Below, in pieces: positions 595 to 59,833 of a DNA stretch of 64,000 nucleotides. Below the pieces are notes generated by a model that was given only the letters and a program-made list of their open reading frames with translations, was not told where the DNA came from and did not search any database. The stretch comes from Auriscalpium vulgare. Lineage: Eukaryota > Basidiomycota > Agaricomycetes > Russulales > Auriscalpiaceae. The stretch is from positions 1,240,001 through 1,304,000 of the forward strand of contig JAHBBC010000009.1 in the NCBI GenBank assembly GCA_019915015.1. Direction: 5' to 3'. Position 1 is the first letter of the stretch; each line of letters begins with the position of its first letter. The position numbers and the translations under genes are program-made.

Positions 595-1252
595 TGATAC
601 GCTATCACCCGGGACGGACCCTAGCGGGGCGTGCGGCGAGTGCCTCACAGGGACAACAACCACCAACACTGCCTCCTATACGTTGCGATCCAGTCCGGGT
701 GACTAGTCTTGCTGAGGGGGGAAGGTGTTCGTGTCGCTGTTGCGCTTCGTGCCCTCCCCGCGGTCGTGCGGGGCCACCTCCTACCGCCTAAACACCAAAC
801 TAAACACTCACCTGCCTGGGGATGCCCTCTACGGGATCCTCCTCCGAGTGCTTCGCACCCGTGTGCGAAGCGTCCGCCTATGGGCCGTCGCACCCCCTCT
901 TGCCTGTCCGCCTGCCTACCTGTTCCCACATCGGTGGGGTCCTTCCTTCCTAAGTCTGGTAGCGCCTCAGGCTACAGTTTCTGTGAGGTAAAGGGTGTGG
1001 GTGGCTTGCGCCGCCCACAGGTTGATTGGGTTGCTACGTCTCGCGCAGCTCCCTAAGTAGTGGCTCTACCTACGTCGCTAAGCCCTCCCGATCTAGCCCG
1101 TTCCGGTGATCCGTTCCGTCGCCAGTCCCGGTTGCTCCTGGGTCGCCGGACCACGTTCCCATCACCCCCGCTCCCGCGACCCTGCGCCTCGCATGCTGCT
1201 TCCCCGTCTCGCGACGTCTCGCTACACGCTTGCCCGCGGCCTGAACCTATCA
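595..1252 (-). repeat. E1 3' LTR
   Basis: 658-bp direct repeat of 13492-14149, TG...CA ended. In the sense of the element this is the 3' LTR because the polypurine tract abuts it at 1253. Open frames inside it recur unchanged in the other LTR and are not genes. Confidence 0.95.
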
Positions 1253-1267
1253 TTTCTCTCCCCAACT
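1253..1267 (-). promoter_or_regulatory. E1 polypurine tract next to the 3' LTR
   Basis: On the minus strand the sequence AGTTGGGGAGAGAAA runs directly into the TG of the 3' LTR. That is the expected position of the plus-strand primer for reverse transcription. Confidence 0.8.
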
Positions 1268-1273
1268 GAAACT

Positions 1274-1291
1274 GCAACTGTCCCCAGTTGC
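1274..1291. other. Perfect 7-bp-stem hairpin beside the terminal polypurine tract
   Basis: GCAACTG, a 4-base loop, CAGTTGC. A hairpin plus polypurine tract of the same design lies just after pol at 6543-6579, and again after pol in E3 at 59799-59833. Confidence 0.7.
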
Positions 1292-1313
1292 CAGGAACCG
1301 TGCGGAAGCGGCA

Positions 1314-1320
1314 TATAAGG
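1314..1320 (+). promoter_or_regulatory. TATA box of antisense gene A
   Basis: TATAAGG lies 67 bp upstream of the ATG at 1381, just inside the LTR. Two TCGCGA half-sites at 1323 and 1333 follow it directly. Confidence 0.6.
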
Positions 1321-1380
1321 GCTCGCGACCTTTCGCGATAACGTCGCTTGTAGCATCCCTTTGCCGATTTCTGTCCCGCG

Positions 1381-2629
1381 ATGTCCCTCCCCGCAGCGTC
1401 TGCCACCGCCGACAACCTCGACCTCCTCCGCCTGTTGACGCAGGCCCCCTTCGCTGGTTTTGACCTTGGGGATGCCGAACGGGAGGTTGCGCTACGTCTA
1501 GAGTGGGCCGACAAAGTCAACCAGCTCGTGGTGCGTGCTGGTCCCCGACCGCGTCTTTTCCCGGCTTGGCTGATGATGAACTCAATTCCAGACCCTTTCT
1601 TCAATCCGCGCGTCCCGCAGCCTGCGCGATCTTGCCTTCCACTTCACCTCGCCGATCCTCGAGTTCATGGTGAAGCTCGTTCCAGCGTCCGCCCCTCTCG
1701 CCCAGCGCTTCGAGGGCACCCTCATGCGTACCCTCCCCGACTCAGCGCGCGCCAGCCCGCGGTGGTCCCAGATGTTCTCCCCTTTCCCTGCCGACGCTAC
1801 CGACGCGGAACTCCACGTCTTGATCACCATCGTGGAGGCTGGGCTCTGGACCGTGTACTACTTCGGAGACGGTTCTGTCGAATCCTACCTCCATGAAATC
1901 ACGGAGTTGCATGGCGCCTTCCCCACCCTGCGTCCTCAGGGGATGCAGAGCTGGCTCCTACGTGATTTCGACGCCCGGGCCGTCCATGGGATGTTTGTTA
2001 TTACCCGCGAAGACGCCGTGTGCCGCGCCCTGGCCTACCACGTCCGTGGTGCCTCCAGCTCCCCCCACTCTCGTGCCTACGCGGGCCGCCTCACCACGGG
2101 CGTGGTGTACTACCTATTGGGGGGCCTCGCGGAGGACTCGGTGGATATGTTACGGGACTTTACCACCATTTCCGAGGCCTTCGACACGTTTCGCGATATT
2201 TGGGCGGACTGGCCACTGGTGTTGGATCGCCTCGACATGCGCTGGGCCGCGATGGCAACCTGTATGGGCGGGATGCTGGACGCATGGGGATTAGGGTCCC
2301 GCCTCCTGGCCAACCTCCAGCCCGCAGACTTCCTGGTCCAGGATATCAGCGTGGCCTCGATTCGCGCCATCGAGCAGATCAGTTCTGCGCGCCTCTCGCA
2401 CATCTCCTCCTCCCAAGCCATAGCTGAGATACCCCTAGGCTTCGATGCCATAGTCCATCCCTCGGACCAGCCGGGCCCTCTTCCCTTCCCCGCGCACCCC
2501 ACGGTACCAGCGCCGACGGCCCCCTCCGCGTCTCCTACCTACGCCGGGGAGATACCGCCGCCCATCGCCAGCTCGGAAGAAGTCGAGGAGGGGGAGGTGA
2601 TCGAGCTTCTGATGGAGCGCGAGGAATAG
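1381..2629 (+). CDS. E1 antisense gene A: unrecognised 395-aa protein
   Basis: Exons 1381-1530 and 1592-2629 give 395 residues. The 61-bp phase-0 intron has donor GTGCGT, a CTGAT branch motif and a CAG acceptor; using it fuses a 50-residue N-terminal exon to a long open frame. The protein is largely helical-looking in the middle, with a Pro/Ala-rich tail and an acidic end (EEVEEGEVIELLMEREE). No domain is recognised. The first exon ends in an EWADKVNQL-type segment, and exon 2 begins with a hydrophobic stretch (SPILEFMV) that recurs in the E3 gene at 62930-64000. Gene B has the same exon plan, so A and B look like ancient paralogues. It is transcribed against gag-pol, from a TATA box next to the LTR. 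Function is unknown; a regulatory or structural accessory role is only inference. Confidence 0.75.
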
Positions 2630-2968
2630 GTATATTCCCGGGCCCATGTCTGTAGAATGTTCCATAGCTATTGAAATGGAACCAGGAGCCATGTGCGGCT
2701 TCCCCCTGTCCCTGTGCCACGTTTCGCGATGCCTTGCGATAAGCTCCTGGGCCCATGCCGGAGGCTCCGTCTGGGTCGCGATCTGTCGCGATAACCCACG
2801 TTGGCCGGAACTCCGGCGAGACCCTCGTGTTTTGGTCTTCGCGCTGTATCGCGACGCCGCGATGGTGTGCCTCTTTCCCTACTCGCGCCGCCTATATGAG
2901 GGGGCTGCGACGATGGCCTTTTCCAAAAAAACCCTCAACGCCCCAGTCCGTCCGACTACCTCCTCCAC
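2630..2968 (+). promoter_or_regulatory. Spacer between genes A and B with the gene B promoter
   Basis: 339 bp without a gene. It holds TCGCGA-N4-TTGCGA at 2724-2739, an exact TCGCGA-N4-TCGCGA at 2776-2791 and a TATA box (TATATGAG, 2893-2900) 76 bp before the gene B ATG. The 10-mer TCGCGATAAC at 2786 also occurs at 1333 in the gene A leader. Confidence 0.6.
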
Positions 2969-4150
2969 ATGCAGGCCGTCCTACTCCGCGCGTTTTCGCG
3001 TTTCCGGCTGTACCAGCTGTTGATACATCCGGTTGAGGTGCCCTTGCCTGGTGCCGACGCTTCCTCATTTCCCGCGGCCGCCGTTGCCTGGCTTCAGGAG
3101 ATCTCCGACCTATTGGTGCGTCGTCCCGCGGCCCTCTTTTCCCTCATCCCGGCCTCGTACTGACGTTGTCTTCGCTTCTTCCCCCCTTTTCAGCAGGACC
3201 ATCGCGAGACGTCGCATTTTACCCTACCGGCCCTCGCGTCCATGACCGTCGTCTCGACGCTCTCCTACCTAGCGGAGCGCTTTCCCGAAACGTTCGAACA
3301 AACCGCCCCCATTCGCGCGAATATCGTAGGAAATATTCCGTTCGGAGGGGACAACGCCCCGGGGCAGCCACCCAGCGTCGCTCTGCTTCCTCACGTGGTC
3401 CATGTGGACTCCTTGGCCCACCTGGTGGAGCGCTCCGTTTGGTTGCTGTACCGTCACCAACTTCACGGCCGGGCAACTTTCGAGGTCAACTTGGCAGCGC
3501 TGTTCGGCCCCGAGTTTGCCCCCCGTCCCGACGGCCTTGCCACCCGTGTTGCCGAGTTATTCCTTCGCGACCTCGATCGTTTGAGTGACGACCTCGACCA
3601 CGCCGACGGGCTGGTCGGGGCCCTCATGCTCCCCTTGAACCGCGCCGTGATCGGAATGACCCACCCCCGCGACATTGGCGTCCTCGACTTCCTTGCGGCC
3701 GCGAGTCCCTCGTTGCAGGCTGCCCATCGTGCGAACGTCCGTGAAGCCGCCGACTATCTCGTTCCCGGCCTCAAGTTGGTCGCGGAGCTTCGCGACTTCG
3801 TTTGGGCGGACCAATTGAACGCCAGCCACCTGCGCCACGCCGTCACTCGCCTCGAAGGCACCGCGGGAAAGCTGCTGTACGATGCCTGCGAAGTTGCCGC
3901 GGTCCTCGACCACCTCGCCGGTGCCGGTCCTATGCGCCGTATGCTTACCGCCCTTCCCTTCCCGCCGCTTACTCACCGAGTCATCCGCCGCGGCTCTATC
4001 GCGTTCTCGTGGGGGGTCCCCAACCTTGTTGAGGTCGTGGGCCCGAGGCCTCCTGATGCCCTGAGTCGACGGGCTGGTCGTAGGAATGGGGGTAACCGCG
4101 CCCGGACTCCCGCGCCCAATGGTGCGTCTGGGTCCGGTGCGCCCGCGTAG
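2969..4150 (+). CDS. E1 antisense gene B: unrecognised 367-aa protein, paralogue of A
   Basis: Exons 2969-3115 and 3194-4150. The 78-bp phase-0 intron has donor GTGCGT, a CTGAC branch motif and a pyrimidine-rich acceptor. The first exon encodes 49 residues, matching gene A in length, phase and donor. The protein has a helical core, a segment SLAHLVERSVWLLYR near residue 110, and near residue 325 a motif FSWGVPNLVE followed by an Arg/Gly/Pro-rich tail. The E3 gene at 62930-64000 has an equivalent order: ARQLARLCESALWAAF in the middle and AVPMGWQNVHRG plus an Arg/Gly tail at the end. No family is recognised. The ATG at 2969 was chosen because it follows the TATA box at 2893 and begins the frame spliced into exon 2. 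Confidence 0.75.
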
Positions 4151-4429
4151 CGAGCGATTCCTGTAATTTGCCCAAGGCGCCCTTAGGGCCCAGTAATGCC
4201 ATTCCGTTCCCTATCCCTTCTTCTTGACTCGCGCGCGAACGCTCGCTAAGCCGTGTGAAGGTAAGCGCCGCACCTGTCGCGGCCCGGCGGGCCCGCTCTG
4301 CTTCCACGTCGGAAGCAAAAACCCACACGCTGGCGCGGCGCCCCGTCTTAACGCGACGCGTTGCGCCTCGACCTCTCCGTCTCTCTCTTTCCTCCCCTCA
4401 CCTCTCCCTATCTCCCCCCTTCCCTGGCC

Positions 4430-6128
4430 ATGTCTGCGTTCTCCCGCCCTATCAACCTCAGGAAACGGCTGTCCGCCGTAGAAGCGCTCGTCGCCTCCCT
4501 CCCCACAGTCGACTCCGCCCACTACGGCGAGTTCGCCGCGAACTGGGAGTCGGCCACGGTGAGTGCCCACGGCCTCTCGCTCCCGACGCTCTGCTGACCC
4601 TCCCTTGTGTCCAGTCCGCCTATGCTGAGGTGCTGGGGGAGGACCCCCCGCCGTCCGAGGTGCTGGACAGGATCGGGGCCGTGTCCGCCGTTGTCGACGC
4701 CTGGCCGTCCTCCGGCCCCTCCCCCACGCCGTCCTCACCCGCCATCCCCTACTCCACTCCCGTCGCCGCTCCCCTCTCCCGTCAGGCTGGCAAGCGGGCC
4801 CGCGCCGACAGTGCCCTCCCCGCGCCTTCTGTCCGCCCCCCGGTCTCCTCCACGCCTCACCGCGCCGCCGCCCGCGCTTCCCCGCCGCCCACCAAGCGCA
4901 ACCGCGAGTCCGCCCCCTCCGAGGCTGACGCCGAGGCCGAGGTCGACGAGCTAGATGAGGCGGGGGACCCGCAGGAGCCCGTCGCGCAGCGCACCCGCGG
5001 CGCCACCAAACTCCCCGCCCCCCGATCAGTCCCCGCCGCCGCCAAGTCGAAGGGCAAGGGCAAAGCCGTCCGCAGTTCCAAGCGCCCTGCCAACGTCCCC
5101 TCCGGCTCCCTCGTGCCTCCGCCCGCCGCCACTGTCCCCTCTTCCGAGGCCGGCTCCCCCGCGCCCGCCGCCGACCCTTCCACCTCCGTCAAGGGCGCCA
5201 AGATCCCCGTCGCTGACACCTTCCCGGGCCGCCGCCTTCAGGTACGTCGCCCTTTTCTTGTCCGTCGTGTTGCGCCGCTCACACTCCGACCCTCAGGCTT
5301 CCGCCCCCTGCTACCGCTGCGCCACGATGGACTCCCACCCCACGTGCTTCTTCACGGACGTCAGCGGCCGCCAGTGCCATCGCTGCTTCGTGGGCCACCA
5401 CAAGTGCGACGACGGTGTCCGCGGGACGCACTTCTACGTGGTGGGCAGCGACGGAGTCTCGCAGGATGTCGACCCTGCCGGCATCCATGTCCGTCCCCGG
5501 TCCTCCGCCTTCGACTGGGCCGACCACCCCGACCCTGCCGGCGCCGTCCCCATCCTCCGCTACGACTCCCCGCCGCAGCTTTTCCGGACCTACAACGCGC
5601 TCACGGAGGAGCTCAACACCATCAGCGTCAACTACGCGACGCTCGACGCCCGGGCCCGCGGCATCGTCGCTGAGCGGAACTGGGTCTGGCGGACCCTGCA
5701 GCAGCTCGGCGACCCCGCGTTCCCTGCGCCTGCCGGGGGCCTCATCTCGCCGCAGGTTGGCCCCTTCGATCCGCCGCGCCGCCTCCCATTCCCTGCTCCC
5801 TCCGCGTCGCGTGCCGCTTCTCCCGCGCCGGCCAGGCCTGCCTCGCGCCTCCCCCTCGCGCCGCCCTCGTCGGCTCTCATCGCCTCTTCCCTCCCGCTGC
5901 TTAGCGCCGCCGTCGTGGCTCCCCTCGGTCGCGCTTCTCGCCTTCCTTCCCCCGTGCCTCCGGTTGCTCCCGCTGCGCCCTTCTCGCCGCTCGCCTCTGC
6001 CGCTCCTCCCGCGTCGGACCCTGCCCCGGCCCTACCATGCCTACCGCCGCCGCTCCCTCCTTCGAGGATGTCGGCACGCCGCCCTCCGCCGCGGCTGATG
6101 GTCCCGCTGACCCCGCGCCCGCCGCTTA
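4430..6128 (+). CDS. E1 antisense gene C: protein with a Zn2Cys6-like cysteine cluster (3' end uncertain)
   Basis: Exons 4430-4558, 4615-5241 and 5297 onward, separated by 56- and 55-bp phase-0 introns. Exon 1 encodes 43 residues. Exon 2 is Pro/Ala/Ser-rich with basic patches such as KSKGKGKAVRSSKR. Exon 3 opens with six cysteines in the order C-x2-C-x8-C-x9-C-x2-C-x6-C, which resembles a fungal Zn2Cys6 cluster with a lengthened first loop. A helical segment (around FRTYNALTEELNTI) follows. The E3 gene at 60124-62440 has the same exon order and cysteine cluster. The frame read from exon 3 stays open to 6343 but looks non-coding after about 6030, whereas the +1 frame from 6037 to a stop at 6128 looks coding with an acidic Pro/Ala end. 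I therefore suspect a further intron or a frameshift in this copy. DNA binding is inferred from the cysteine pattern only. Confidence 0.65.
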
Positions 6129-6601
6129 GCCGCTTGCGAGCCTTCTTTAAAAGGAGTCGCCCCTGCTTCAACAGCAGAGGGCCTTGGTGCTTCGATGCGG
6201 GGGGCGTTCCTCGTGTCCTAGGTGGGGGTTTCGGCGTCTCGCTGTCGTGTTGTCCGCTCGTTATCGGTCTGTTCATAGTTGTTCGCTATCCGTCGCTACC
6301 TCTTTGCTGTGTACATAGAATTCGCTATCCTGCTATGTTGTGAATAGAGTCCATTGCTTGTGTCACAGTGTGAGCGTGTCCTATCGCGTTTCCGGCGCGA
6401 CCCCAGCCTTGTTCCAGACCCTTGAAGCCTTAGTCGGTGCCTGCCCAGTCCGAGCTTCGCTAGCGCTCGCGACCTCGACTTATCGTCCTGACTCGTCTCC
6501 ATCCGTACTTCCAGCTGTTCAGTCCTAAATACCACCGTCTAATCCTCCCCCCAACTGAAATATCGACTGTCCTCAGTCGCCGTAGTGCTGGGCGGTACTT
6601 T
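6129..6601. other. Gap between the convergent 3' ends of gene C and E1 pol
   Basis: 473 bp with no convincing gene. Its right part carries the internal hairpin/polypurine module. Confidence 0.6.
6543..6579 (-). promoter_or_regulatory. Internal hairpin plus polypurine tract just downstream of E1 pol
   Basis: On the minus strand, 22 bp after the pol stop, come a perfect 6-bp stem (CGACTG, 4-base loop, CAGTCG; 6564-6579), then TTTCAGTTGGGGGGAGGAT. The LTR-adjacent module at 1253-1291 has the same order: hairpin, TTTCAGTTGGGG, purines. E3 carries a counterpart at 59799-59833. It may be a central polypurine tract or a relic of an earlier 3' end. Confidence 0.65.
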
Positions 6602-9600
6602 TTAGACGGTGATCTCGTCGTCCTTGTCATCGTCTTCCCTGGTGGGGTCGTCTGCTTCCTCTTCATGAATGGCATCGTGATCCTGCCTATCTTCATGAAG
6701 TAGCTCGTCCACCCTGGACTGTGGGACGTCCAGAAATTCGGGCAACTCTGGCAGCGCAATGTTCGTTCGCGCGAAGTAAGGCAGGACGCGAAACTCCGCG
6801 ACCGGTCGGTCGAAGAGCGCACCGTGGAGGTCCGCAAGCACGTAAGGTCCTCCTTTCCGTCGGCCAATTACCACGAACGGTCCATCGTAGCGCGGAAGCA
6901 TTTTTCGATCTAATGACTTCTCGTACCGCGTGAACCGTAGGAGGACCAAGTCGCCTCTCTTGAAATTGTAGTCGCGAATCGTCGCTTCGTGGTCACGTTC
7001 AAATTTTACCGCCGCGATACGTCGCGCTTCAAAGACTTTGTCGTGGATGGTCCTTAACTGGGCTTTTCTCTTTTGTAGGGCCATTGCCCTGCGCGCTATG
7101 AGGTCTGTGGAAGACAGTAGAGACTCGGGCGGAGGCATCAAGTATGAAGCCTCGATGATATCCAGCGGCATTAGCGGCTGCGTTCCTGTTACCGCGAAGT
7201 ATGGCGAGCAGCCCATCCTCCGCCTGATCGTTATCCTGTCCGACCAGAATACCGAGTACGCGACCGTTGACCATTTTGCAGCATTTCCATCGGCTGCCTT
7301 GTAGAGCGCTTGACGTACGTCGAAGTGAGACCGCTCGACTATTCCGTTGGCTCGCGAATTATATCCCGATATTCGAATGTGCCGGACTCCATACTTATGC
7401 GACAGGGATTCCAAGGCCGACACGAACGGTGCGCCGTTGTCCGTGACCACTTCTCGCAGGGCGCCCCACCGGCACAAGACGTCTTCGAAAATCCATTTCG
7501 CGATGGCGTCCGCCGTCTCCGCCCTTAGCATTCTCCACTCTGGATAGTGGGTTACGGAGCAGCGTCCTTGCACGATGTATTTGAATCCGCCGCTTGCTGG
7601 CATATGCATGGTGTCTGCATACATCTTTGCGAAAAGGTTCGCCGGCGTTGCCACCGTTGGCGGTATCAGGCTGTGGCGAACTAGTCGGGTTTCGCAAATA
7701 TGGCACGTTCTCACCCACCAGGCCACGTCTGCGTCCACGTATGGCCACCAGAAACGCTCCAACAGCATCATCCGCGTCGCGTAGACGCCTTTGTGTCCGA
7801 CATCGTCATGAGCTGCTTTGAGGACCGCGATACGTCGGTCTCCTCCCAGCACGAGTTGGTGCCTGCCTTGGTGGTGCCTTTTGAAAAGGCGGTCCCCATC
7901 CTTGAAGAACTGGAGCGCGTATCGAGCGAAACGAGCGAACTGTTCGTCGGTCAAGTCCGCCGGCCGCGCCAGGGTCCCTAACCAGTCCCTGACTAGTTCC
8001 AGCCGCTTGTCAGCTTCATGAGCCTTGTCTGATCTGGGAACATCGCGATACGTCGCGTCCTGTACTGGTGCGGGTTGCATTTGGACCGTAGTTGCCCAGA
8101 CGTCGGCCGGTTCATCGTGGGAGCGCCGGGCCTCCTCGCGACGTATCGCGTCCTGGCTTGAACCAGCCCCATGTTCGTCTGGTATGCTTCCTGGCCCCGT
8201 CCATCCATCTTGCCGTCGCGAGGCTCTCTCTTGCGCTGTCTTCGGGACTACCATGTTTACGATATGTGCGAAACCATACACCGCATCAACCCAGTCGTCG
8301 AAGTCGTCTTCCTGTTCCAGAGCGTCTCCTGGTTGCCTACGCCTCCTGGATAGGCCGTCGGGCCCGTGGAAGAGTCCCGGCACATGCACTAGCTCAAAAT
8401 GGAACATCAGGATGCCTATAATCCACCTGTTCATACTGGCCGATGGCTCGAGGTCAGGATTTTCCAGCATGCCTTTGATATACCTGGCGTCGACCTCAAT
8501 GGTCAGGTTCCTCACCCCTATCAGGTAGACTTTAAGGGCCCGCAGGGCTCGAAAAAGACCATAGAGCTCCAGCTTGGGCTGCGAGAACCGCGCTTCGCGA
8601 TCGTTTAGCGCGATGCTACCAAATCGAGAATATCGGCGTCTCTTCCTGTCTTGGGGAACGTTGGGGTCCGCCTGACTCAATAGGAAACCCACCGCGATGT
8701 ACGAGGTGTCTACCGCTAGGATCACGGGGGCCTCCGACGTGTAATCAATCGGTAGGAGCGCTGGTGATGCGAGGACTGCCTCCTTGAGGTCCTCCATAGC
8801 TCGCGACTGTTCGGGTCCCCATTCGAACGGGACGTCCTTCCTCGTCAGGTGTGTCAAGGCATGGGCTCGGTGCGCAAAGTTACGGATAAAGATGCGCAGG
8901 ACTCCGACTGTCCCCAAGAAAGCCCGTACGTCTGAGAGGTCCGTGCACGGCCCCCAATTGCGAATCTTCGCGACCTTTTCTTCGTCTGCCATCCTTCCTT
9001 GCGGTGTGCAGCGATGCCCTACCACGTAGAATTCTGGTACGCACAGCTGTGATTTCCATCCTGAGAACGTGCCATGACAGTAGCGCATTCGTTGGACTAC
9101 CCTGTTAACGTTGTTAAAGTGTTCCCATACGAACCGCCTTATGCCGTTGTTGCCGGGGATCGTTTCGTATCCTCCGCCTTCCGTCCTGTAGTCCGAGTCC
9201 GGCCCCTTCAGGGGGACGTCGTCTATAAAAGGCACCGTAATATGCGGGATTTCCGGTTGGAGAATAAAGGTCACGTCGTCGTGGAAGATCGGGACGGAAT
9301 TCGTCCACCCCATAGGCAGGGTCACCAGCCGTTTTGCGCCGTACGGCGTCTGGAAAGTCGTGAGGTCCCTTGAGGCTTCATCTAGTCTCCTTTCGTCATA
9401 GCCCACGTAGAGGTCCAGAATTCCCCCGCACGGCCGCCCCGCAAACTGCTCCGCCAAATGATCTGGGAAGGGGGGTACTCCTGAGTGCGCGATGGTCACC
9501 GCATTCAGGGGTTCCAGACTATGGACTATACGGAGGCTGGTCCCGTCCTTCTTAACCACACAGAACCACCTAGAGCGGTACGACGAGTTTGAGTCCTCGT

Positions 9601-10372
9601 AGACTCCCGCGGCGATCTTGGTCTTGATGAGCGCCATGACCTTGTCGTATATCCCTGGCGGAATCGGAATATTTCGCTGAACCCACGGCCGATGCGGAAC
9701 TACTGGTATTGTGACGGGGGGGAAGAAGTCTTCTCGGAAGCGCCCCCGCTCCGAGTCGTCCCAGGCAAATGCCTCGTTTTGTGCGCACATAAACGCATGC
9801 ATGAGCTTCCTTTCTTCCGGCCATAGGAAATCTCCGTCGTGGACTCGGTCAAATTGTTCGCGACGTTCCGCGGTGTACCTTCCCGTGGGTACGAAGTCCG
9901 GTGGCTTCTCTGGGAGCGGCGGCATATCCGCCAGGGGGTCCCCTCTGATCTCTCTGAGGATCCGGAAGTGCTCCGGCAGGTCCGTACGAATGGGCTTTAC
10001 CTTGAGGTGTGCTGGCTTGTAACGCTTCTTCGTGGCCGCAAAGACTTCGCGCTGCATCGCGGTCGGCTGTAGCTCACCTCTGTCCGTTTCCTCCTCTCTT
10101 TCTCTCCCACTCTCGCCGTCTCCCCAGTCTGCCGCCGTCCAAATAAACGTCCCTGCTCTTGCTCGTTCCTCCTCTTCCTCTCCTTCTTCCGCTCGCTTCG
10201 CGAACACTCCCGCGTATTCCTCCGGTAGGTCGCACACTGACAAATAAGCTGACTGCACATCTTCGATTGTAGGCGAGGATTCGAGGTACACCAGGGATTC
10301 CATTCTAAGAGTATCAGGCTTATCGGGCTCGAACCCCACGACCAGCCCTACCTCCTCCTGGTCCTCCAACAA
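6602..10372 (-). CDS. pol: E1 pol: reverse transcriptase, RNase H, integrase
   Basis: About 1,256 residues in the -1 frame relative to gag, overlapping or abutting its stop. The reverse transcriptase carries WFCVVKKDG, LDLYVGYDER and the catalytic FIDD motif near residue 382. The RNase H region starts with VILAVDTS. The integrase has an HHCC finger (GHKGVYATRMM to CHICETR), then D (YADTMHMP), D (VTDNGAPF) and E (NGIVERSH). After it comes a GPY-type segment (GGPYVLADLHGA). There is no chromodomain; the tail is acidic. No stop or frameshift is seen, so the enzyme could be active. The first codon is not a firm ATG, which agrees with expression by frameshifting from gag. Nearest relatives in the window are the E3 and E2 pol genes. 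Confidence 0.93.
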   Translation of the reverse strand: MLEDQEEVGLVVGFEPDKPDTLRMESLVYLESSPTIEDVQSAYLSVCDLPEEYAGVFAKRAEEGEEEEERARAGTFIWTAADWGDGESGREREEETDRGELQPTAMQREVFAATKKRYKPAHLKVKPIRTDLPEHFRILREIRGDPLADMPPLPEKPPDFVPTGRYTAERREQFDRVHDGDFLWPEERKLMHAFMCAQNEAFAWDDSERGRFREDFFPPVTIPVVPHRPWVQRNIPIPPGIYDKVMALIKTKIAAGVYEDSNSSYRSRWFCVVKKDGTSLRIVHSLEPLNAVTIAHSGVPPFPDHLAEQFAGRPCGGILDLYVGYDERRLDEASRDLTTFQTPYGAKRLVTLPMGWTNSVPIFHDDVTFILQPEIPHITVPFIDDVPLKGPDSDYRTEGGGYETIPGNNGIRRFVWEHFNNVNRVVQRMRYCHGTFSGWKSQLCVPEFYVVGHRCTPQGRMADEEKVAKIRNWGPCTDLSDVRAFLGTVGVLRIFIRNFAHRAHALTHLTRKDVPFEWGPEQSRAMEDLKEAVLASPALLPIDYTSEAPVILAVDTSYIAVGFLLSQADPNVPQDRKRRRYSRFGSIALNDREARFSQPKLELYGLFRALRALKVYLIGVRNLTIEVDARYIKGMLENPDLEPSASMNRWIIGILMFHFELVHVPGLFHGPDGLSRRRRQPGDALEQEDDFDDWVDAVYGFAHIVNMVVPKTAQERASRRQDGWTGPGSIPDEHGAGSSQDAIRREEARRSHDEPADVWATTVQMQPAPVQDATYRDVPRSDKAHEADKRLELVRDWLGTLARPADLTDEQFARFARYALQFFKDGDRLFKRHHQGRHQLVLGGDRRIAVLKAAHDDVGHKGVYATRMMLLERFWWPYVDADVAWWVRTCHICETRLVRHSLIPPTVATPANLFAKMYADTMHMPASGGFKYIVQGRCSVTHYPEWRMLRAETADAIAKWIFEDVLCRWGALREVVTDNGAPFVSALESLSHKYGVRHIRISGYNSRANGIVERSHFDVRQALYKAADGNAAKWSTVAYSVFWSDRITIRRRMGCSPYFAVTGTQPLMPLDIIEASYLMPPPESLLSSTDLIARRAMALQKRKAQLRTIHDKVFEARRIAAVKFERDHEATIRDYNFKRGDLVLLRFTRYEKSLDRKMLPRYDGPFVVIGRRKGGPYVLADLHGALFDRPVAEFRVLPYFARTNIALPELPEFLDVPQSRVDELLHEDRQDHDAIHEEEADDPTREDDDKDDEITV

Positions 10373-10377
10373 ATCCT

Positions 10378-13300
10378 CTAGTCGCGGAAACCCTCCACCC
10401 CCTGCTTCTGGGTTCGCGAGATGCGCTTGCGGCCGCGTGGAATAGTGGGGATTGACGCCATGACTCCCGTGTTTGGGTCCGTGATCGTGATTGTCTGCCT
10501 CTCGTCTGCAAAGTTTTGCACGGTACTTCCCGTGAGAACGTCAAAGGGCCTCCCCAGGAGCATGTCGTACGCCGGGTTGCGGATGATATGCACCTGTACG
10601 TATAGCGTTATACCCCCAATCTTCATCGGGACGTTTCTAGCCAGGCCTAGCGACCTATCGCGACTTTTGTTGGCCGATATCATATCCAGGCGAACGTTCG
10701 GATCGTAATGCAGCCCGAGGTAATGGCATACGTCCTCGGACATGGAAATAATCTGCGACCCGGGATCCACGACTGCCTCGATGTGCGCTTGGTTGTCGAC
10801 TAGTGGCAAGATCGAACGGAGGGCCAGCGATTCCTTGGCGACTTCCAACGGCTCAGGGTCTGGTTCCCCTTCTCCTGCTTCTCCTAGATCTCCCATCAGA
10901 ACCTCCACAATGACTTCTCCTACACGCGTCCCCTCGGGCAACTCCGTTGGCTGGTGTCCCAGGGCTTGCAGAAAGGTTTCGGGCATATGGTCCGCGAATC
11001 CCCTCACCACCTTCTCGTCCTCTCCTTCCCCTTCGTCCTGGTCAAAGTCGAACGGAAAGAGCTCTGGTTCGCTTTCCACCATCGCCTGGACTACTGGTAC
11101 TCTTGCCTCGTTTGGGACCCGCTTAGGGGTCACCACGTTGCGAACTTGAGCGCGTACTTCCGGGGCAATGGACATGAGCTCCCTCTGTGTCAAGGTGACC
11201 TCCGCATTCATGGCCCTCTCATAAACCTTACTTGCTATTACGGGGTCGCGGACCGGGGCGACCTTATTGTATGCTGGGTCCGCCTTGCGCTGCCCCGCGC
11301 TTCGTTGGTAACTTGCCGGCCCTATGTACGTCGCGTCGGGCACCTTCGCGAAAGGGTGGATCGGAGGTGTTAACGGCTCCTCACCCGCTGTGGTGTCTTC
11401 GTCGGCCTGCCTTTGTTTGTCTGCGCTATCCCCAGTCTCCCCTGGTCGGTCGACGGCCTCCGGCTCGAAGGAAACCTGCTTCTTGGCTTGCGTAAACGGC
11501 TTCCTCTTCGGAATGACCACCTCTGGAACTCGTCGCGATCTTTCGCGCTCGCCAGGCAGCAGCCCTATTGCCTGGGGAAACTCGCCCGCGTCCAGTGCGG
11601 CCTGCCGGCGTTCCTTCTGAGCTTGCCTTTCCGCTCGGGCCGTCAGGAGCACTGCCATCTCCTGCTGGAGCTCCGTCATTCTGTCTTCGTCGGTCAATTG
11701 CGGCGTCAGTTGGATTAGGCCGGCGACCGTCTGCACTTTGGCCGGCACTGGCTCGTAGTCCATCGTCGTCAGCATCATGGCTTCTGACTGTCCGTGTTGA
11801 TTCCCGGCGTAGTACGCATCCACACGCTGCTTCAGCGGGCCTTCTCCTAGCGGGATAAGTCCTCCACCCTTCAGAACGACCCGGTTGTTGTGGTCCCTAG
11901 ATACGCGACCCGTCGCGATGTAGTCCTGGACCACCATACATTCCCTGACGAAGTGCCCCGTTTGGCCGCAGAAAAGGCATCCTGACGGCCCTCCCTGTCC
12001 GCCTTGATTTCCTTGCGTGGCGCGCGGCTGTTGAGTTCCCGAGGTACCCCCATAACCCCTCTGACCTCCGCCGTTCCCCTGGTTGACGAGCATCCGCGCG
12101 AACTGTTCGGCAACCGCGGCTTTGATTGCTTCTTGAAACTGTTCTATTTTGATTACAGGCTCCGTCGTTGCAACCGCCACTGCCGGTCCTGCGCTGACCG
12201 CTGGTACGATTGAGGGAGTGCCCCTCAGCTCGTACTCTCCTGCCTCTAGCACGTCGGCCATGGGGTACGGTGTTTCTTTATCGTGGTCCGGCAATTTGAT
12301 CTGCAGTCTCGTCGCCACCCTGTTCATGAGGCTGTCCTGGAAAGCGCGAAGGAACGCGATATCGCGCTCACGGGTCGAGATCCTGCTTTTCTTAACCAGG
12401 AAGTCGGTGATCGCGAAGAACTGCCGATAGAATTCGCTGAGCTCGCCGCCGGACGCAATGCCCAGACGGTACCGACTGCCTACGAGCGCGTCCATGTCCG
12501 CGATGGTATACTTGCGGTCCTCATCGGCTCCCGGGTACAGTTTAACAATGGCGTCCTGAAAGTCTTGGTAGGTCTTGGTGGGATCCTTAAACTCCGGCCT
12601 CGCTTCCCACTCCTCAGCCGTCGCGACGTCTAGGTAACGCACTGCATGGCCCTTCTTCGCCGTATCATCCGCTAGTTGAGCCCGGGCAAAGAGATGGTTC
12701 AGCTCGTCGAAGTAACGCGGTAACTCGCGGGCCTTCTGATTGAAAGACGGTGCGTTGCGGTCCCCGCGGGTAGGCATTGCGACTGGCGCGACGTTGGGCT
12801 GAGGCGGTATTGCCTGTTGTCCGCCGCCTCCCCCTCCTCCACCGCCTCCGCCTCCGCCGCCGCCTCCTCCACCCGTTCCTGTTCCTTGTTGCTGTGTACT
12901 CATTCCTGACTGTGTTGGCAACTTTGGGTTGCTGGGGTTCGAACGGCTTGATGGAGCTTCTTGGGGATTGTTGCTAGCTTCCGCGACGTTTCGCGAAGTC
13001 CTATCTTGTAAGGAAACGGCCCGTCCCCATCCCGGACTGACCCGTTCGTTCCTCGAGCATTCCCCTTCCGGATCATGCCGTGTGTGATGGTCGCTATCGC
13101 CACCATCAGAATTCAGAAGCAAACCTTCTAGTCCCTCGATCGTGACGCGATCCCCTCCTGTGATCAGGGACCTAGGGTCCTCTCCGGCGCGTCGGATCTC
13201 CCTACTGAGGGTCGGTCCATGCGGATCCTCTTCTTCTGATGGCAGACTTGATAGCGATGAGACTTCCCCCTGTTCGTCTTGTGGTTCCTCGATTTCTGCC

Positions 13301-13401
13301 TCTATGGCCGCCTGTCGCGACGTATTGCGAGCGTCCGCCCTCGTGGTCCTCTGCGGCTGTGTTCGCGTTGGGAGGTGGGCTATCTTGGGTTTCGGCGCCA
13401 T
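10378..13401 (-). CDS. gag: E1 gag with C-terminal aspartic protease
   Basis: ATG at 13401, 1,007 residues. The N-terminal third is charged and disordered and includes a run of about 20 glycines encoded by a GGN microsatellite near 12826-12870. A capsid-like helical region follows (ELPRYFDELNHLFARAQL onward). One zinc knuckle, C-x2-C-x4-H-x4-C (CLFCGQTGHFVREC), lies near residue 475. The protease begins at VDNQAHIEAVVDPGSQ, with D-P-G at about residue 879 in place of the usual D-T/S-G, and ends with LLGRPFDVL. E2 and E3 share the DPG. The stop overlaps the conserved gag-pol junction motif. The 90-bp leader to the LTR holds the primer-binding site. Confidence 0.92.
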   Translation of the reverse strand: MAPKPKIAHLPTRTQPQRTTRADARNTSRQAAIEAEIEEPQDEQGEVSSLSSLPSEEEDPHGPTLSREIRRAGEDPRSLITGGDRVTIEGLEGLLLNSDGGDSDHHTRHDPEGECSRNERVSPGWGRAVSLQDRTSRNVAEASNNPQEAPSSRSNPSNPKLPTQSGMSTQQQGTGTGGGGGGGGGGGGGGGGGGQQAIPPQPNVAPVAMPTRGDRNAPSFNQKARELPRYFDELNHLFARAQLADDTAKKGHAVRYLDVATAEEWEARPEFKDPTKTYQDFQDAIVKLYPGADEDRKYTIADMDALVGSRYRLGIASGGELSEFYRQFFAITDFLVKKSRISTRERDIAFLRAFQDSLMNRVATRLQIKLPDHDKETPYPMADVLEAGEYELRGTPSIVPAVSAGPAVAVATTEPVIKIEQFQEAIKAAVAEQFARMLVNQGNGGGQRGYGGTSGTQQPRATQGNQGGQGGPSGCLFCGQTGHFVRECMVVQDYIATGRVSRDHNNRVVLKGGGLIPLGEGPLKQRVDAYYAGNQHGQSEAMMLTTMDYEPVPAKVQTVAGLIQLTPQLTDEDRMTELQQEMAVLLTARAERQAQKERRQAALDAGEFPQAIGLLPGERERSRRVPEVVIPKRKPFTQAKKQVSFEPEAVDRPGETGDSADKQRQADEDTTAGEEPLTPPIHPFAKVPDATYIGPASYQRSAGQRKADPAYNKVAPVRDPVIASKVYERAMNAEVTLTQRELMSIAPEVRAQVRNVVTPKRVPNEARVPVVQAMVESEPELFPFDFDQDEGEGEDEKVVRGFADHMPETFLQALGHQPTELPEGTRVGEVIVEVLMGDLGEAGEGEPDPEPLEVAKESLALRSILPLVDNQAHIEAVVDPGSQIISMSEDVCHYLGLHYDPNVRLDMISANKSRDRSLGLARNVPMKIGGITLYVQVHIIRNPAYDMLLGRPFDVLTGSTVQNFADERQTITITDPNTGVMASIPTIPRGRKRISRTQKQGVEGFRD

Positions 13402-13470
13402 GTTGATCAGCGACCGGGTGCCGTCTACGAGGCTGATTTTAAAGCTCGAACACGATCGTCATCACCATAC

Positions 13471-13488
13471 CCCTCGCGGTGGGCTCCA
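13471..13488 (-). promoter_or_regulatory. E1 primer-binding site
   Basis: On the minus strand TGGAGCCCACCGCGAGGG starts 3 nt after the LTR. The same sequence follows the LTRs of E2 (50135-50153) and E3 (52890-52908). The implied primer tRNA would end in CTCCA, i.e. have U at the discriminator position, which hints at tRNA-Cys. Confidence 0.75.
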
Positions 13489-13491
13489 AAA

Positions 13492-14149
13492 TGATACGCT
13501 ATCACCCGGGACGGACCCTAGCGGGGCGTGCGGCGAGTGCCTCACAGGGACAACAACCACCAACACTGCCTCCTATACGTTGCGATCCAGTCCGGGTGAC
13601 TAGTCTTGCTGAGGGGGGAAGGTGTTCGTGTCGCTGTTGCGCTTCGTGCCCTCCCCGCGGTCGTGCGGGGCCACCTCCTACCGCCTAAACACCAAACTAA
13701 ACACTCACCTGCCTGGGGATGCCCTCTACGGGATCCTCCTCCGAGTGCTTCGCACCCGTGTGCGAAGCGTCCGCCTATGGGCCGTCGCACCCCCTCTTGC
13801 CTGTCCGCCTGCCTACCTGTTCCCACATCGGTGGGGTCCTTCCTTCCTAAGTCTGGTAGCGCCTCAGGCTACAGTTTCTGTGAGGTAAAGGGTGTGGGTG
13901 GCTTGCGCCGCCCACAGGTTGATTGGGTTGCTACGTCTCGCGCAGCTCCCTAAGTAGTGGCTCTACCTACGTCGCTAAGCCCTCCCGATCTAGCCCGTTC
14001 CGGTGATCCGTTCCGTCGCCAGTCCCGGTTGCTCCTGGGTCGCCGGACCACGTTCCCATCACCCCCGCTCCCGCGACCCTGCGCCTCGCATGCTGCTTCC
14101 CCGTCTCGCGACGTCTCGCTACACGCTTGCCCGCGGCCTGAACCTATCA
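13492..14149 (-). repeat. E1 5' LTR
   Basis: 658-bp copy of 595-1252 with the same TG...CA ends. It is followed by GCGC at 14150 and then by satellite. Confidence 0.95.
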
Positions 14150-14153
14150 GCGC
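14150..14153. repeat. Target-site duplication of E1, right copy (GCGC)
   Basis: Matches 591-594. Confidence 0.85.
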
Positions 14154-17100
14154 TATTCTTCTCCTTGAAAGAACTGATTCCCAATGTGGAATCAGAACAG
14201 GATATGCTTCAAGAGATGTGTAGGGTGCCTAGGTCGAAAATGTACGAACCTTCAGGAAGTTGTAGACACCCTTCAAGAAAATGTATGGACCCTTCAAAGG
14301 TTTGTAGTCGCCCTTCATGATGCACAGGCAGGGCAGTTCGCGATCTTTAATTCGTCTGGACCGCAAATGAAAAGTAATCTTTCTTTATTTCGGTGAGCTC
14401 AAATTTATTTTATATTGCACCTGCCCAGAAGCCAATAGAGCTGTCAATATTCAAATGTTGATATATGTCGCACTCAATAGCACTCAGCCTCTGAGCTGAC
14501 CCAGCAACATTGAGTCTTTTAATATGTATTGTGCTCAGAAAGAATTTAATAATGCTCCGGAAAAACGCGGGTGAGCCTCGGGTGAACCCGTAAAGTGTAC
14601 TTTACTTCGGACTCCGACGCGCTATTCTTCTCCTTGAAAGAACTGATTCCCAATGTGGAATCAGAACAGGATATGCTTCAAGAGATGTGTAGGGTGCCTA
14701 GGTCGAAAATGTACGAACCTTCAGGAAGTTGTAGACACCCTTCAAGAAAATGTATGGACCCTTCAAAGGTTTGTAGTCGCCCTTCATGATGCACAGGCAG
14801 GGCAGTTCGCGATCTTTAATTCGTCTGGACCGCAAATGAAAAGTAATCTTTCTTTATTTCGGTGAGCTCAAATTTATTTTATATTGCACCTGCCCAGAAG
14901 CCAATAGAGCTGTCAATATTCAAATGTTGATATATGTCGCACTCAATAGCACTCAGCCTCTGAGCTGACCCAGCAACATTGAGTCTTTTAATATGTATTG
15001 TGCTCAGAAAGAATTTAATAATGCTCCGGAAAAACGCGGGTGAGCCTCGGGTGAACCCGTAAAGTGTACTTTACTTCGGACTCCGACGCGCTATTCTTCT
15101 CCTTGAAAGAACTGATTCCCAATGTGGAATCAGAACAGGATATGCTTCAAGAGATGTGTAGGGTGCCTAGGTCGAAAATGTACGAACCTTCAGGAAGTTG
15201 TAGACACCCTTCAAGAAAATGTATGGACCCTTCAAAGGTTTGTAGTCGCCCTTCATGATGCACAGGCAGGGCAGTTCGCGATCTTTAATTCGTCTGGACC
15301 GCAAATGAAAAGTAATCTTTCTTTATTTCGGTGAGCTCAAATTTATTTTATATTGCACCTGCCCAGAAGCCAATAGAGCTGTCAATATTCAAATGTTGAT
15401 ATATGTCGCACTCAATAGCACTCAGCCTCTGAGCTGACCCAGCAACATTGAGTCTTTTAATATGTATTGTGCTCAGAAAGAATTTAATAATGCTCCGGAA
15501 AAACGCGGGTGAGCCTCGGGTGAACCCGTAAAGTGTACTTTACTTCGGACTCCGACGCGCTATTCTTCTCCTTGAAAGAACTGATTCCCAATGTGGAATC
15601 AGAACAGGATATGCTTCAAGAGATGTGTAGGGTGCCTAGGTCGAAAATGTACGAACCTTCAGGAAGTTGTAGACACCCTTCAAGAAAATGTATGGACCCT
15701 TCAAAGGTTTGTAGTCGCCCTTCATGATGCACAGGCAGGGCAGTTCGCGATCTTTAATTCGTCTGGACCGCAAATGAAAAGTAATCTTTCTTTATTTCGG
15801 TGAGCTCAAATTTATTTTATATTGCACCTGCCCAGAAGCCAATAGAGCTGTCAATATTCAAATGTTGATATATGTCGCACTCAATAGCACTCAGCCTCTG
15901 AGCTGACCCAGCAACATTGAGTCTTTTAATATGTATTGTGCTCAGAAAGAATTTAATAATGCTCCGGAAAAACGCGGGTGAGCCTCGGGTGAACCCGTAA
16001 AGTGTACTTTACTTCGGACTCCGACGCGCTATTCTTCTCCTTGAAAGAACTGATTCCCAATGTGGAATCAGAACAGGATATGCTTCAAGAGATGTGTAGG
16101 GTGCCTAGGTCGAAAATGTACGAACCTTCAGGAAGTTGTAGACACCCTTCAAGAAAATGTATGGACCCTTCAAAGGTTTGTAGTCGCCCTTCATGATGCA
16201 CAGGCAGGGCAGTTCGCGATCTTTAATTCGTCTGGACCGCAAATGAAAAGTAATCTTTCTTTATTTCGGTGAGCTCAAATTTATTTTATATTGCACCTGC
16301 CCAGAAGCCAATAGAGCTGTCAATATTCAAATGTTGATATATGTCGCACTCAATAGCACTCAGCCTCTGAGCTGACCCAGCAACATTGAGTCTTTTAATA
16401 TGTATTGTGCTCAGAAAGAATTTAATAATGCTCCGGAAAAACGCGGGTGAGCCTCGGGTGAACCCGTAAAGTGTACTTTACTTCGGACTCCGACGCGCTA
16501 TTCTTCTCCTTGAAAGAACTGATTCCCAATGTGGAATCAGAACAGGATATGCTTCAAGAGATGTGTAGGGTGCCTAGGTCGAAAATGTACGAACCTTCAG
16601 GAAGTTGTAGACACCCTTCAAGAAAATGTATGGACCCTTCAAAGGTTTGTAGTCGCCCTTCATGATGCACAGGCAGGGCAGTTCGCGATCTTTAATTCGT
16701 CTGGACCGCAAATGAAAAGTAATCTTTCTTTATTTCGGTGAGCTCAAATTTATTTTATATTGCACCTGCCCAGAAGCCAATAGAGCTGTCAATATTCAAA
16801 TGTTGATATATGTCGCACTCAATAGCACTCAGCCTCTGAGCTGACCCAGCAACATTGAGTCTTTTAATATGTATTGTGCTCAGAAAGAATTTAATAATGC
16901 TCCGGAAAAACGCGGGTGAGCCTCGGGTGAACCCGTAAAGTGTACTTTACTTCGGACTCCGACGCGCTATTCTTCTCCTTGAAAGAACTGATTCCCAATG
17001 TGGAATCAGAACAGGATATGCTTCAAGAGATGTGTAGGGTGCCTAGGTCGAAAATGTACGAACCTTCAGGAAGTTGTAGACACCCTTCAAGAAAATGTAT

Positions 17101-18555
17101 GGACCCTTCAAAGGTTTGTAGTCGCCCTTCATGATGCACAGGCAGGGCAGTTCGCGATCTTTAATTCGTCTGGACCGCAAATGAAAAGTAATCTTTCTTT
17201 ATTTCGGTGAGCTCAAATTTATTTTATATTGCACCTGCCCAGAAGCCAATAGAGCTGTCAATATTCAAATGTTGATATATGTCGCACTCAATAGCACTCA
17301 GCCTCTGAGCTGACCCAGCAACATTGAGTCTTTTAATATGTATTGTGCTCAGAAAGAATTTAATAATGCTCCGGAAAAACGCGGGTGAGCCTCGGGTGAA
17401 CCCGTAAAGTGTACTTTACTTCGGACTCCGACGCGCTATTCTTCTCCTTGAAAGAACTGATTCCCAATGTGGAATCAGAACAGGATATGCTTCAAGAGAT
17501 GTGTAGGGTGCCTAGGTCGAAAATGTACGAACCTTCAGGAAGTTGTAGACACCCTTCAAGAAAATGTATGGACCCTTCAAAGGTTTGTAGTCGCCCTTCA
17601 TGATGCACAGGCAGGGCAGTTCGCGATCTTTAATTCGTCTGGACCGCAAATGAAAAGTAATCTTTCTTTATTTCGGTGAGCTCAAATTTATTTTATATTG
17701 CACCTGCCCAGAAGCCAATAGAGCTGTCAATATTCAAATGTTGATATATGTCGCACTCAATAGCACTCAGCCTCTGAGCTGACCCAGCAACATTGAGTCT
17801 TTTAATATGTATTGTGCTCAGAAAGAATTTAATAATGCTCCGGAAAAACGCGGGTGAGCCTCGGGTGAACCCGTAAAGTGTACTTTACTTCGGACTCCGA
17901 CGCGCTATTCTTCTCCTTGAAAGAACTGATTCCCAATGTGGAATCAGAACAGGATATGCTTCAAGAGATGTGTAGGGTGCCTAGGTCGAAAATGTACGAA
18001 CCTTCAGGAAGTTGTAGACACCCTTCAAGAAAATGTATGGACCCTTCAAAGGTTTGTAGTCGCCCTTCATGATGCACAGGCAGGGCAGTTCGCGATCTTT
18101 AATTCGTCTGGACCGCAAATGAAAAGTAATCTTTCTTTATTTCGGTGAGCTCAAATTTATTTTATATTGCACCTGCCCAGAAGCCAATAGAGCTGTCAAT
18201 ATTCAAATGTTGATATATGTCGCACTCAATAGCACTCAGCCTCTGAGCTGACCCAGCAACATTGAGTCTTTTAATATGTATTGTGCTCAGAAAGAATTTA
18301 ATAATGCTCCGGAAAAACGCGGGTGAGCCTCGGGTGAACCCGTAAAGTGTACTTTACTTCGGACTCCGACGCGCTATTCTTCTCCTTGAAAGAACTGATT
18401 CCCAATGTGGAATCAGAACAGGATATGCTTCAAGAGATGTGTAGGGTGCCTAGGTCGAAAATGTACGAACCTTCAGGAAGTTGTAGACACCCTTCAAGAA
18501 AATGTATGGACCCTTCAAAGGTTTGTAGTCGCCCTTCATGATGCACAGGCAGGGC

Positions 18556-18557
18556 AG
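18556..18557. repeat. Target-site duplication of the Plavaka element, left copy (AG)
   Basis: AG here and at 43182-43183. Removing the element and one AG restores the satellite sequence GGGCAGTTCGCG. Confidence 0.75.
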
Positions 18558-18584
18558 CATCTGGAAACCCACTCCCCCATAATT
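18558..18584 (+). repeat. Plavaka left terminal inverted repeat
   Basis: Starts CATCTGGAAACCC and matches the reverse complement of 43155-43181 at 26 of 27 positions. Confidence 0.9.
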
Positions 18585-18911
18585 TATACTTATTTAGCCT
18601 GATTTACTCAAAATAATGCTAATATGTGCAAAATCCTCATTATCATTATTATTACCCATCCCCCCCCTTCAAAAAGATGTAATTTAGGATATTTTATAGA
18701 AATTTACACAGTAGCCTAGCCTGTATCATCATTGTGCATATTACAGATTAGTTCAAATATTACCATAATATTACTCTCATGTGAGCCAGACATTGGACTA
18801 ATATTGTCCGCAAGGGGCACAGGTTAAACAATGAGGGGAGGATTATATTCTCTAATATTTGAGTAAAAAGTCAAGCATGTAGGAGGCTAATAACTGAAAA
18901 AAGCGCAGGCA
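18585..18911. other. AT-rich left subterminal region of the Plavaka element
   Basis: 327 bp without a gene. It includes a C8 run and several CTAATAT-like words (near 18617, 18797 and 18855), candidates for subterminal transposase-binding repeats. No matching set was seen on the right side. Confidence 0.5.
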
Positions 18912-20165: not shown

Positions 20166-20778
20166 TGAGACGCCTCTGATAGGTGAGTCTCGAGATTCGG
20201 GCGTAGGACGGGCGAGAGACGAGCCCAGGGAGGAACCAAAGGTGTGTTGTCCTGTCGGTACGGGGCTTCCCCGTGTTGACAGACCTCCTCCGTAGCACGG
20301 AAGGAGTGGAGGGCGAGGAGATGTGATCACGCCCGTAGGCGCAAGGCCCGAGCGGGAGCTCAGTCGTTAGGAGGCTTCCTCCTGGTGACTGGCTCGAGAG
20401 AGAGAAGGGCGAGGCGCCGACGGCCCAAGTGCGTCGCGCGTGTGTGGTTCTGTGGGCGCGCTGTTGGCGCTCGAGAAGCCTCACGCGCTCGTGACTCGTC
20501 GCGTCGTCGCGTCGTCGATTCTCGTAGTCGACTAGCAACTACTTTGCCTGAGGGAGACTTGAAGAGAATTGAGGAAGGCGAAGAGACGAGAAAAAGAGAA
20601 AGAAAAAGAAACACGTTGTATTGATGATGCACGATGCTGTCAGTACACGACTTATATACTTACAGACATCTTCAAACTCCGACTAATCTAATCTATTGTA
20701 CAGTAATCTAATAGCGTCCTGCGTCGAGACTGATGACCTTCTGCCCGCGTTACCTCCGGGCCTCTTTCTCCCGTCACA
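20166..20778 (-). repeat. X LTR 1
   Basis: 613 bp, orientation as LTR 3 (TGAGACGCC...CCCGTCACA on the plus strand). On the minus strand a TATATAAG box lies near 20651. The pol ATG starts at the very next base. Confidence 0.95.
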
Positions 20779-32697: not shown

Positions 32698-32700
32698 CTT

Positions 32701-46992: not shown

Positions 46993-47000
46993 CGACCCCT

Positions 47001-50114: not shown

Positions 50115-50134
50115 TGTGAATTTGAGCAGAGAGA

Positions 50135-59798: not shown

Positions 59799-59833
59799 AC
59801 TGCTGGGGTCAGCAGTTTCCGTCGGGGGGAGGA
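59799..59833 (+). promoter_or_regulatory. Hairpin plus polypurine tract just downstream of E3 pol
   Basis: A perfect 7-bp stem (ACTGCTG, 4-base loop, CAGCAGT; 59799-59816), then GTCGGGGGGAGGAT, followed by GACGGTG. In E1 the counterpart also ends GGGGGGAGGAT then GACGGTG. Confidence 0.65.

Follow-up and report, generated by a model that had tools for sequence, protein, structure and literature searches.

An antisense cassette of three intron-bearing genes, conserved under purifying selection, in Ty3/gypsy retrotransposons of Auriscalpium vulgare

We analyzed a stretch of 64,000 nucleotides of the Auriscalpium vulgare genome (contig JAHBBC010000009.1, positions 1,240,001 to 1,304,000; hereafter the window), in which a Ty3/gypsy retrotransposon, here called E1 (595-14149), encodes gag-pol on the minus strand and carries three genes, A, B, and C, on the plus strand between pol and its 3′ long terminal repeat (LTR). 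The first-pass annotation had proposed three intron-containing antisense genes at this place, and our analysis confirmed them: the E1 introns lie at the positions it had given, are bounded by GT..AG, and keep the reading frame. The cassette is almost certainly real, old, and selected. Beyond what had been proposed, A and B are paralogs, C encodes a six-cysteine protein, and a second element in the window, E2, carries the same cassette. Its retention in related elements and the selection on its proteins make it likely that the cassette serves the element, perhaps as a set of regulators, and is not a group of passengers.

Purifying selection on the antisense proteins

Long open frames alone are unconvincing in this element, because at the E1 composition the chance of 349 open codons is 0.0017 per start, with approximately 90 starts; stop codons on the cassette strand occur at 0.018 per codon. 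The signal above chance is conservation, namely the synteny in E2 and in a third lineage, E3, the ratio of nonsynonymous to synonymous substitution rates (dN/dS), and the third-position bias of A and B. The first-pass annotation had looked to other copies for conservation of the three frames, and the frames are indeed conserved and selected. Copies of E1 itself are unable to reveal selection on their own: among the 40 scored DNA matches to E1 gene A (67 candidates), 39 cover all 1249 bases at 97-100% identity, and these copies are thus young.

We calculated dN/dS by the Nei-Gojobori method with bootstrap intervals. In close pairs, the proteins of A, B, and C are under purifying selection. Indeed, between E2 and its relative E2b, the ratio was 0.076 (0.05-0.105) for B, 0.18 (0.06-0.39) for A, and 0.37 (0.30-0.46) for C, with a control value of 0.037 (0.01-0.07) for 301 codons of pol; between E3 and E3s, it was 0.069 (0.047-0.102) for A. 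Since E3s is a shortened locus (L031), its A gene has been selected for most of the time since the split from E3. Differences at codon positions 1, 2, and 3 were 38, 20, and 151 for B (374 codons), and 35, 13, and 151 for A of E3/E3s (386 codons). The comparisons among E1, E2, and E3 are near synonymous saturation; there, four A and B ratios ranged from 0.55 to 0.81, and three of the intervals exclude 1.

The same cassette in three lineages

The order LTR-A-B-C-pol is common to E1, E2, and E3, all of the same genome (51.6-Mb assembly, used for all own-genome comparisons; the window lies on the contig labelled C9). E2 gag-pol spans approximately 53450-59785, with the pol frame at 55997-59785 on the plus strand, and its A, B, and C lie on the minus strand. 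E2 gene C (60124-62440) has five exons and encodes 692 residues, with a six-cysteine (Cys6) domain and an acidic tail; for E2 gene B (62930-64000), the window contains exon 2, the intron, and the end of exon 1, with the ATG just past its end; and E2 gene A lies beyond it, in locus L026. E3 (loci L029 and L030) has A, B, and C followed by pol and gag in the opposite orientation. The pol genes of E2 and E3 each share 69% identity with E1 pol over aligned codons (67-69% over the comparisons), while gag is 47% identical in E2 (tblastn) and 43% (tblastn) or 48% (aligned codons) in E3. The E1 A protein is 26% identical to E2 A (tblastn) and 26.5% to E3 A, and A proteins of the three lineages share roughly 21-32% identity. 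The presence of the cassette in three lineages with such diverged gag, pol, and A indicates that its acquisition is old.

The association with pol also holds over the loci listed. Among the pol tails listed, one lies within 8 kb, in the opposite orientation, at 83 of 99 B loci (E1 40/47, E2 34/43, E3 9/9), none lies on the same strand as B within this distance (0/99), and 16 B loci have no pol tail within it. Seen from the other side, 83 of the 112 pol tails listed have B on the opposite strand within 8 kb (E1 40/61, E2 34/41, E3 9/10). After pol of three further lineages (pol tail 58-62% identical; 6.5-7.1 kb after pol, one locus each), no relative of A, B, or C was found at E < 0.1, the best values being 0.16, 0.23, and 0.35.

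Shortened relatives of E1 were also observed (L009, L011, L013, L015, L017, and L019), which retain part of A but neither B nor the greater part of C, and in which the pol frames are broken; such copies are among the pol tails that have no B, and one layout is shared by them at several places. The E3s locus (L031, C19:157000-164999) consists of gag and the selected A; the 8 kb examined contain no match to pol, B, or C, and the locus is possibly a non-autonomous derivative.

A and B are tandem paralogs with a shared intron

E1 gene A consists of exon 1 (1381-1530, 50 codons), a phase-0 intron (1531-1591), and exon 2 (1592-2629), and encodes 395 residues; the same splice junction is present in one public Auriscalpium vulgare gene model, the closest available support for the suggestion that the cassette is expressed. 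Gene B is built alike, with exon 1 (2969-3115, 49 codons), a phase-0 intron (3116-3193, spliced by eye and homology), and exon 2 (3194-4150), for a protein of 367 residues. TATA boxes had been proposed for two of the cassette genes; TATA-like strings start 67 bp upstream of the A start codon and 76 bp upstream of the B start codon, and none was found within 130 bp upstream of E1 gene C.

Profiles of three A and three B proteins match each other with an hhalign probability of 98.5 (E 1.5e-15), and in the own-genome search the E2 B query matches E3 A at E 1.3e-9. Furthermore, all nine spliced A and B genes (spliced by eye and homology, and including A and B of E1, E2, E2b, and E3) have an exon 1 of 144-150 nt (48-50 codons), a phase-0 intron of 51-78 nt, and a product of 367-395 residues. 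On these comparisons A and B are tandem paralogs, and the simplest account is one ancestral intron-bearing gene, duplicated before the lineages separated. The phase-0 intron is kept in the same place in A and B of E1, E2, E2b, and E3, in line with the earlier argument that the antisense orientation is sensible for introns: persistence across lineages is expected if the intron is never spliced from the genomic RNA.

Database searches returned little. No Pfam model was matched above its cut-off by A, B, or C (under a loose limit, E values of 0.066-0.76 were at chance level), the PDB sequence search with the A/B profile gave a best E of 0.42, which is not significant, and a PHROGs search with eight A/B proteins gave no match. 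In the protein database, with approximately 8000 candidates scored per search, E1 A matched one Auriscalpium vulgare protein, and no match was obtained for B or for E3 A, an absence that is weak evidence at this depth.

Gene C encodes a six-cysteine protein

E1 gene C comprises exon 1 (4430-4558, 43 codons), an intron (4559-4614), exon 2 (4615-5241), a second intron (5242-5296), and exon 3 (5297-6343), with the Cys6 domain starting at 5309. The first-pass annotation had extended the cassette to 6343. The frames of A, B, and C stood, and the end of C was not confirmed: the frame is open to 6343, but relative to the L027 copy it is shifted by slight differences in length near 5801 and 6025, so the last part of C is not kept in frame and its 3′ end is doubtful.

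Six cysteines with the spacing CX2CX8-10CX9CX2CX6C are retained in C of E1, E2, E2b, and E3, and the E1 domain matches the E2/E3 profile with E 1.5e-4 and a probability of 51. An intron immediately precedes the domain in E1, E2, and E2b, where the splices were made, and probably also in E3, judging from its frames. C has basic stretches and, in E2 and E2b, a long acidic tail.

The C proteins of E2 and E2b are 59% identical, and despite this the approximately 180 bp upstream of C are nearly identical. A candidate promoter element of C, CGGAAGCAAAA, lies at 4310-4320 on the plus strand, 120 bp before the E1 C ATG, and a match to the same motif, CGGARGCAAAA, precedes E2 gene C (CGGAGGCAAAA, 62585-62595, minus strand), inside this upstream stretch. 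The motif is present once per C-bearing module (n = 4), at -120 in E1, -155 in E2, -151 in E2b, and -138 in E3; both of its matches in the window are upstream of a C gene. Under the same rule, any such 11-mer was common to the upstream regions in 1 of 100 shuffled sets. Another candidate, a TCGCGA motif upstream of A and B, was set aside as an operator since it is overrepresented in pol, in gag, and in the tandem array as well.

The fungal Zn2Cys6 family has the canonical spacing CX2CX6CX5-12CX2CX6-8C, and its members bind DNA at CGG-type sites. C resembles this family (PF00172) in its six cysteines, its two CX2C...C knuckles, the second being CX2CX6C, its basic flanks, and the acidic tail of E2 and E2b; it differs in the first spacing, of 8-10 residues, and in having no PF00172 match. 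A PDB search with the E2 Cys6 domain gave nothing up to E 10.

One of the three further pol lineages, a different Ty3 lineage (L035, C4:2178900-2185900), has its own multi-exon six-cysteine antisense gene after pol (400-2700 of the locus, minus strand). A fragment of its protein gave 17 matches at 88-100% identity, one more match split in two, and a distant one at 39%; among the pol tails listed for this lineage, all 10 have a copy of the gene on the opposite strand approximately 1 kb away, counted by eye. Homology of this gene to C was unsupported by profile comparison.

Element structure, polypurine tracts, and surroundings

E1 has the LTR pair, the gag, the protease, and the reverse transcriptase-RNase H-integrase order of Ty3/gypsy elements. 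Its LTRs (TG...CA, 658 bp, 100% identical to each other, minus strand) lie at 595-1252 and 13492-14149; as gag-pol is on the minus strand, the left one is the 3′ LTR. The gag frame (10378-13458, minus strand) contains a zinc knuckle, below the Pfam cut-off, and the protease, and the pol frame (6602-10540, minus strand) contains the reverse transcriptase, RNase H, and integrase matches (Integrase_H2C2, RT_RNaseH, and RT_RNaseH_2 above cut-off, RVT_1 and rve below). The flanks suggest a 4-bp target duplication, GCGC, inside a 469-bp tandem repeat.

A G-rich polypurine tract adjoins the 3′ LTR in E1 (1253-1291 with its hairpin, minus strand), E2, E2b, E3, and E3s, and a hairpin precedes the tract in the sense of the genomic RNA. 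Extra tract copies lie beside the pol end in E1 (6543-6579 with hairpin, minus strand), E2 (59799-59833 with hairpin, plus strand), and E2b, with an imperfect one in E3, and after A in E2, E2b, E3, and E3s; an element can thus have up to three copies of tract and hairpin. Among 12 distinct hairpins, with duplicates excluded and hand-picked for having a hairpin, which favors the result, pairing holds in 95.2% of cells, both sides change in 4 of the 7 pairs (reached by 12 of 500 shuffles), and the covariation score is above all 500 shuffles. The five wobble (G-U) cells point to a structure formed by the sense RNA. The hairpin motif was rejected as a promoter: E1 and E2 also carry one beside the pol end, where no cassette gene starts, so a polypurine-tract role fits better. 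Rfam gave no match on the window at the gathering threshold.

Lentiviruses have a central polypurine tract, which primes plus-strand DNA synthesis. Judged by sequence, the tracts described here are similar in being extra purine tracts, in sense orientation, inside the element, and differ in the covarying hairpin and in the number of up to three copies per element.

E2 (window end together with L026) and E2b (L032) have a mosaic relationship: they are near 99% identical from the 3′ tract to approximately 1140 bp inward, approximately 92% from there to the tract that separates A and B, approximately 78% just past it, and 73-87% across B. Gene A is thus nearly identical in the two, with B and C diverged and one step near the tract that separates A and B. 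Exchange between elements that follows the tracts is, from this one E2/E2b case, a lead and not a proof.

The 469-bp tandem repeat forms arrays at 1-595, 14150-18670, and 43182-45393 of the window, and E1 is inserted in one of them; a truncated element (45388-50120) ends at another such array. A 614-bp near-identical repeat is present in both orientations at 20165-20778, 28158-28771, and 32700-33313, possibly as the LTRs of another element.

DISCUSSION

Plant elements and the fungal element Boty are known to carry antisense genes between pol and the 3′ LTR, according to the excerpts available of PMC7264820, PMC11963269, and PMC8365987. In being antisense to gag-pol, placed between pol and the 3′ LTR, and present in most copies, the frames of the E1 cassette are typical of the aORF-3R type. 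In the same excerpts, Grande gene23, RIRE2, and Retand have genes in the same place and orientation, also present in most copies, and for the Retand antisense open reading frame a DNA-binding domain (TRP28) is predicted and a role in regulation has been proposed (PMC11963269, PMC7264820). Compared with these as there described, the E1 cassette has three genes, two of them paralogous, and introns conserved across lineages; the word “intron” does not occur in the main text of PMC11963269 and PMC7264820. Homology to the named antisense frames was not found, with no Transposase_28 or other Pfam match above cut-off, brtn and gene23 being outside this comparison. Boty, from the ascomycete Botrytis cinerea, is also fungal and has an antisense gene, brtn, at the same place (PMC7264820, PMC8365987); these partial accounts describe one gene, compared here with A, B, and C by description. 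Also by description alone, the cassette can be likened to VANC of the Arabidopsis VANDAL transposons, a model for an element-encoded protein acting on the element's own noncoding motifs. The excerpt of PMC3411680 on Laccaria bicolor elements mentions no antisense gene, and searches of open-licence PubMed Central (most subscription journals being outside it) turned up no description of a basidiomycete element with an antisense cassette of several intron-bearing genes. What sets this cassette apart from the antisense genes already known is its conserved introns, its duplicated pair, and its Cys6 gene.

Taking the evidence as a whole, the best explanation we can offer is that of a selected antisense cassette with element-encoded regulators having their own promoters, a reading in which our confidence is about even. 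E1 belongs to a Ty3/gypsy group with an old antisense accessory cassette, each gene of which may form its own small transcription unit, running from the interior of the element in the direction of gag-pol. Laboratory retrotransposition reporters rely on the survival of antisense introns through reverse transcription; similarly, introns opposed to the genomic RNA would survive here and be spliced solely from the antisense mRNAs. With less certainty, C is a putative nuclear zinc-cluster-like DNA-binding regulator of element transcription or silencing, which may also control its own promoter through CGGARGCAAAA, and A and B could be partners of C or act on the same step. A fuller antisense regulon, in which C would activate or de-repress the element via the motif before its own gene and perhaps elsewhere, A and B would be its partners, and the hairpin-marked tracts would split plus-strand synthesis and let lineages swap pieces of the module as units, is speculative and rather doubtful.

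Several observations weigh against the regulatory explanation or against its parts. The B ratio of E1/E3 (0.81, 0.61-1.06) is compatible with neutrality in a pair near saturation, and C is the least constrained gene, with codon-position differences of 166, 168, and 298 over 606 codons and a poorly conserved end in E1. The cysteine spacing of C is longer than the canonical Zn2Cys6 one, no Pfam cut-off was passed by A, B, or C, PF00172 included, and structure models are poor (mean predicted local distance difference test score, pLDDT, of 56.0 for the Cys6 domain and 37.5 for the A/B core). The match of E1 B to the B family of E2 and E3 is weak (hhalign probability 6, E 0.006), so its membership leans mainly on position, size, and intron. 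The layout shared by the shortened E1 copies suggests that B and C are dispensable in cis. Finally, one stretch of E3 B is sufficiently hydrophobic (mean 2.0) to form a membrane segment.

This last stretch also bears on the possibility, unlikely in our judgment, that the selected proteins have a role other than in transcription, being translated from antisense messages to serve in particles, assembly, or nuclear import or as envelope-like factors. The position after pol is that of retroviral env and accessory genes, and A and B are conserved and of unknown fold, which would suit such a role; against it, hydropathy peaks at 1.3-1.5 in the other five A/B proteins measured, and C has a conserved six-cysteine domain with basic stretches. 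Nor do the genes look like the sense membrane protein of a retroviral or errantiviral env, as they are antisense and five of the six A/B proteins measured have low hydropathy. The antisense transcription itself could instead be the product, as double-stranded RNA or by hindering sense transcription, with the proteins secondary; such roles are discussed for antisense transcripts of other LTR elements in the part of PMC7264820 available, but selection at the amino acid level, as seen in third-position bias and dN/dS, is not predicted by a noncoding role, and we consider this improbable.

A capture of passenger host genes by one element in recent time (transduction) appears more improbable still. 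The introns and TATA-like strings do resemble those of ordinary fungal genes, and the 16 B loci not tied to a pol tail leave room for a stand-alone host copy; however, the cassette's divergence across three lineages, in gag and pol as well as in A, speaks for an old acquisition, and the protein database, with approximately 8000 candidates scored per search, yielded a single Auriscalpium protein. As for long frames arising by chance in GC-rich sequence, the rarity of stop codons on the gene strand is in their favor, but close-pair dN/dS values are well below 1 and introns, gene order, and cysteines are conserved; chance is refuted for A and B by introns, dN/dS, and codon positions, and for C by the E2/E2b ratio together with the six cysteines, so that practically no weight is left to it.

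The function of antisense genes of LTR retrotransposons is described as unknown in the available part of PMC7264820. The family described here makes the question testable, as it offers several open-frame lineages in one genome, selection at the protein level, introns that would directly report antisense splicing, and, as a candidate promoter element, a motif upstream of C. Another indication from this family is that spliceosomal introns are able to persist in a retrotransposon while the proteins they interrupt fall to approximately 20-30% identity.

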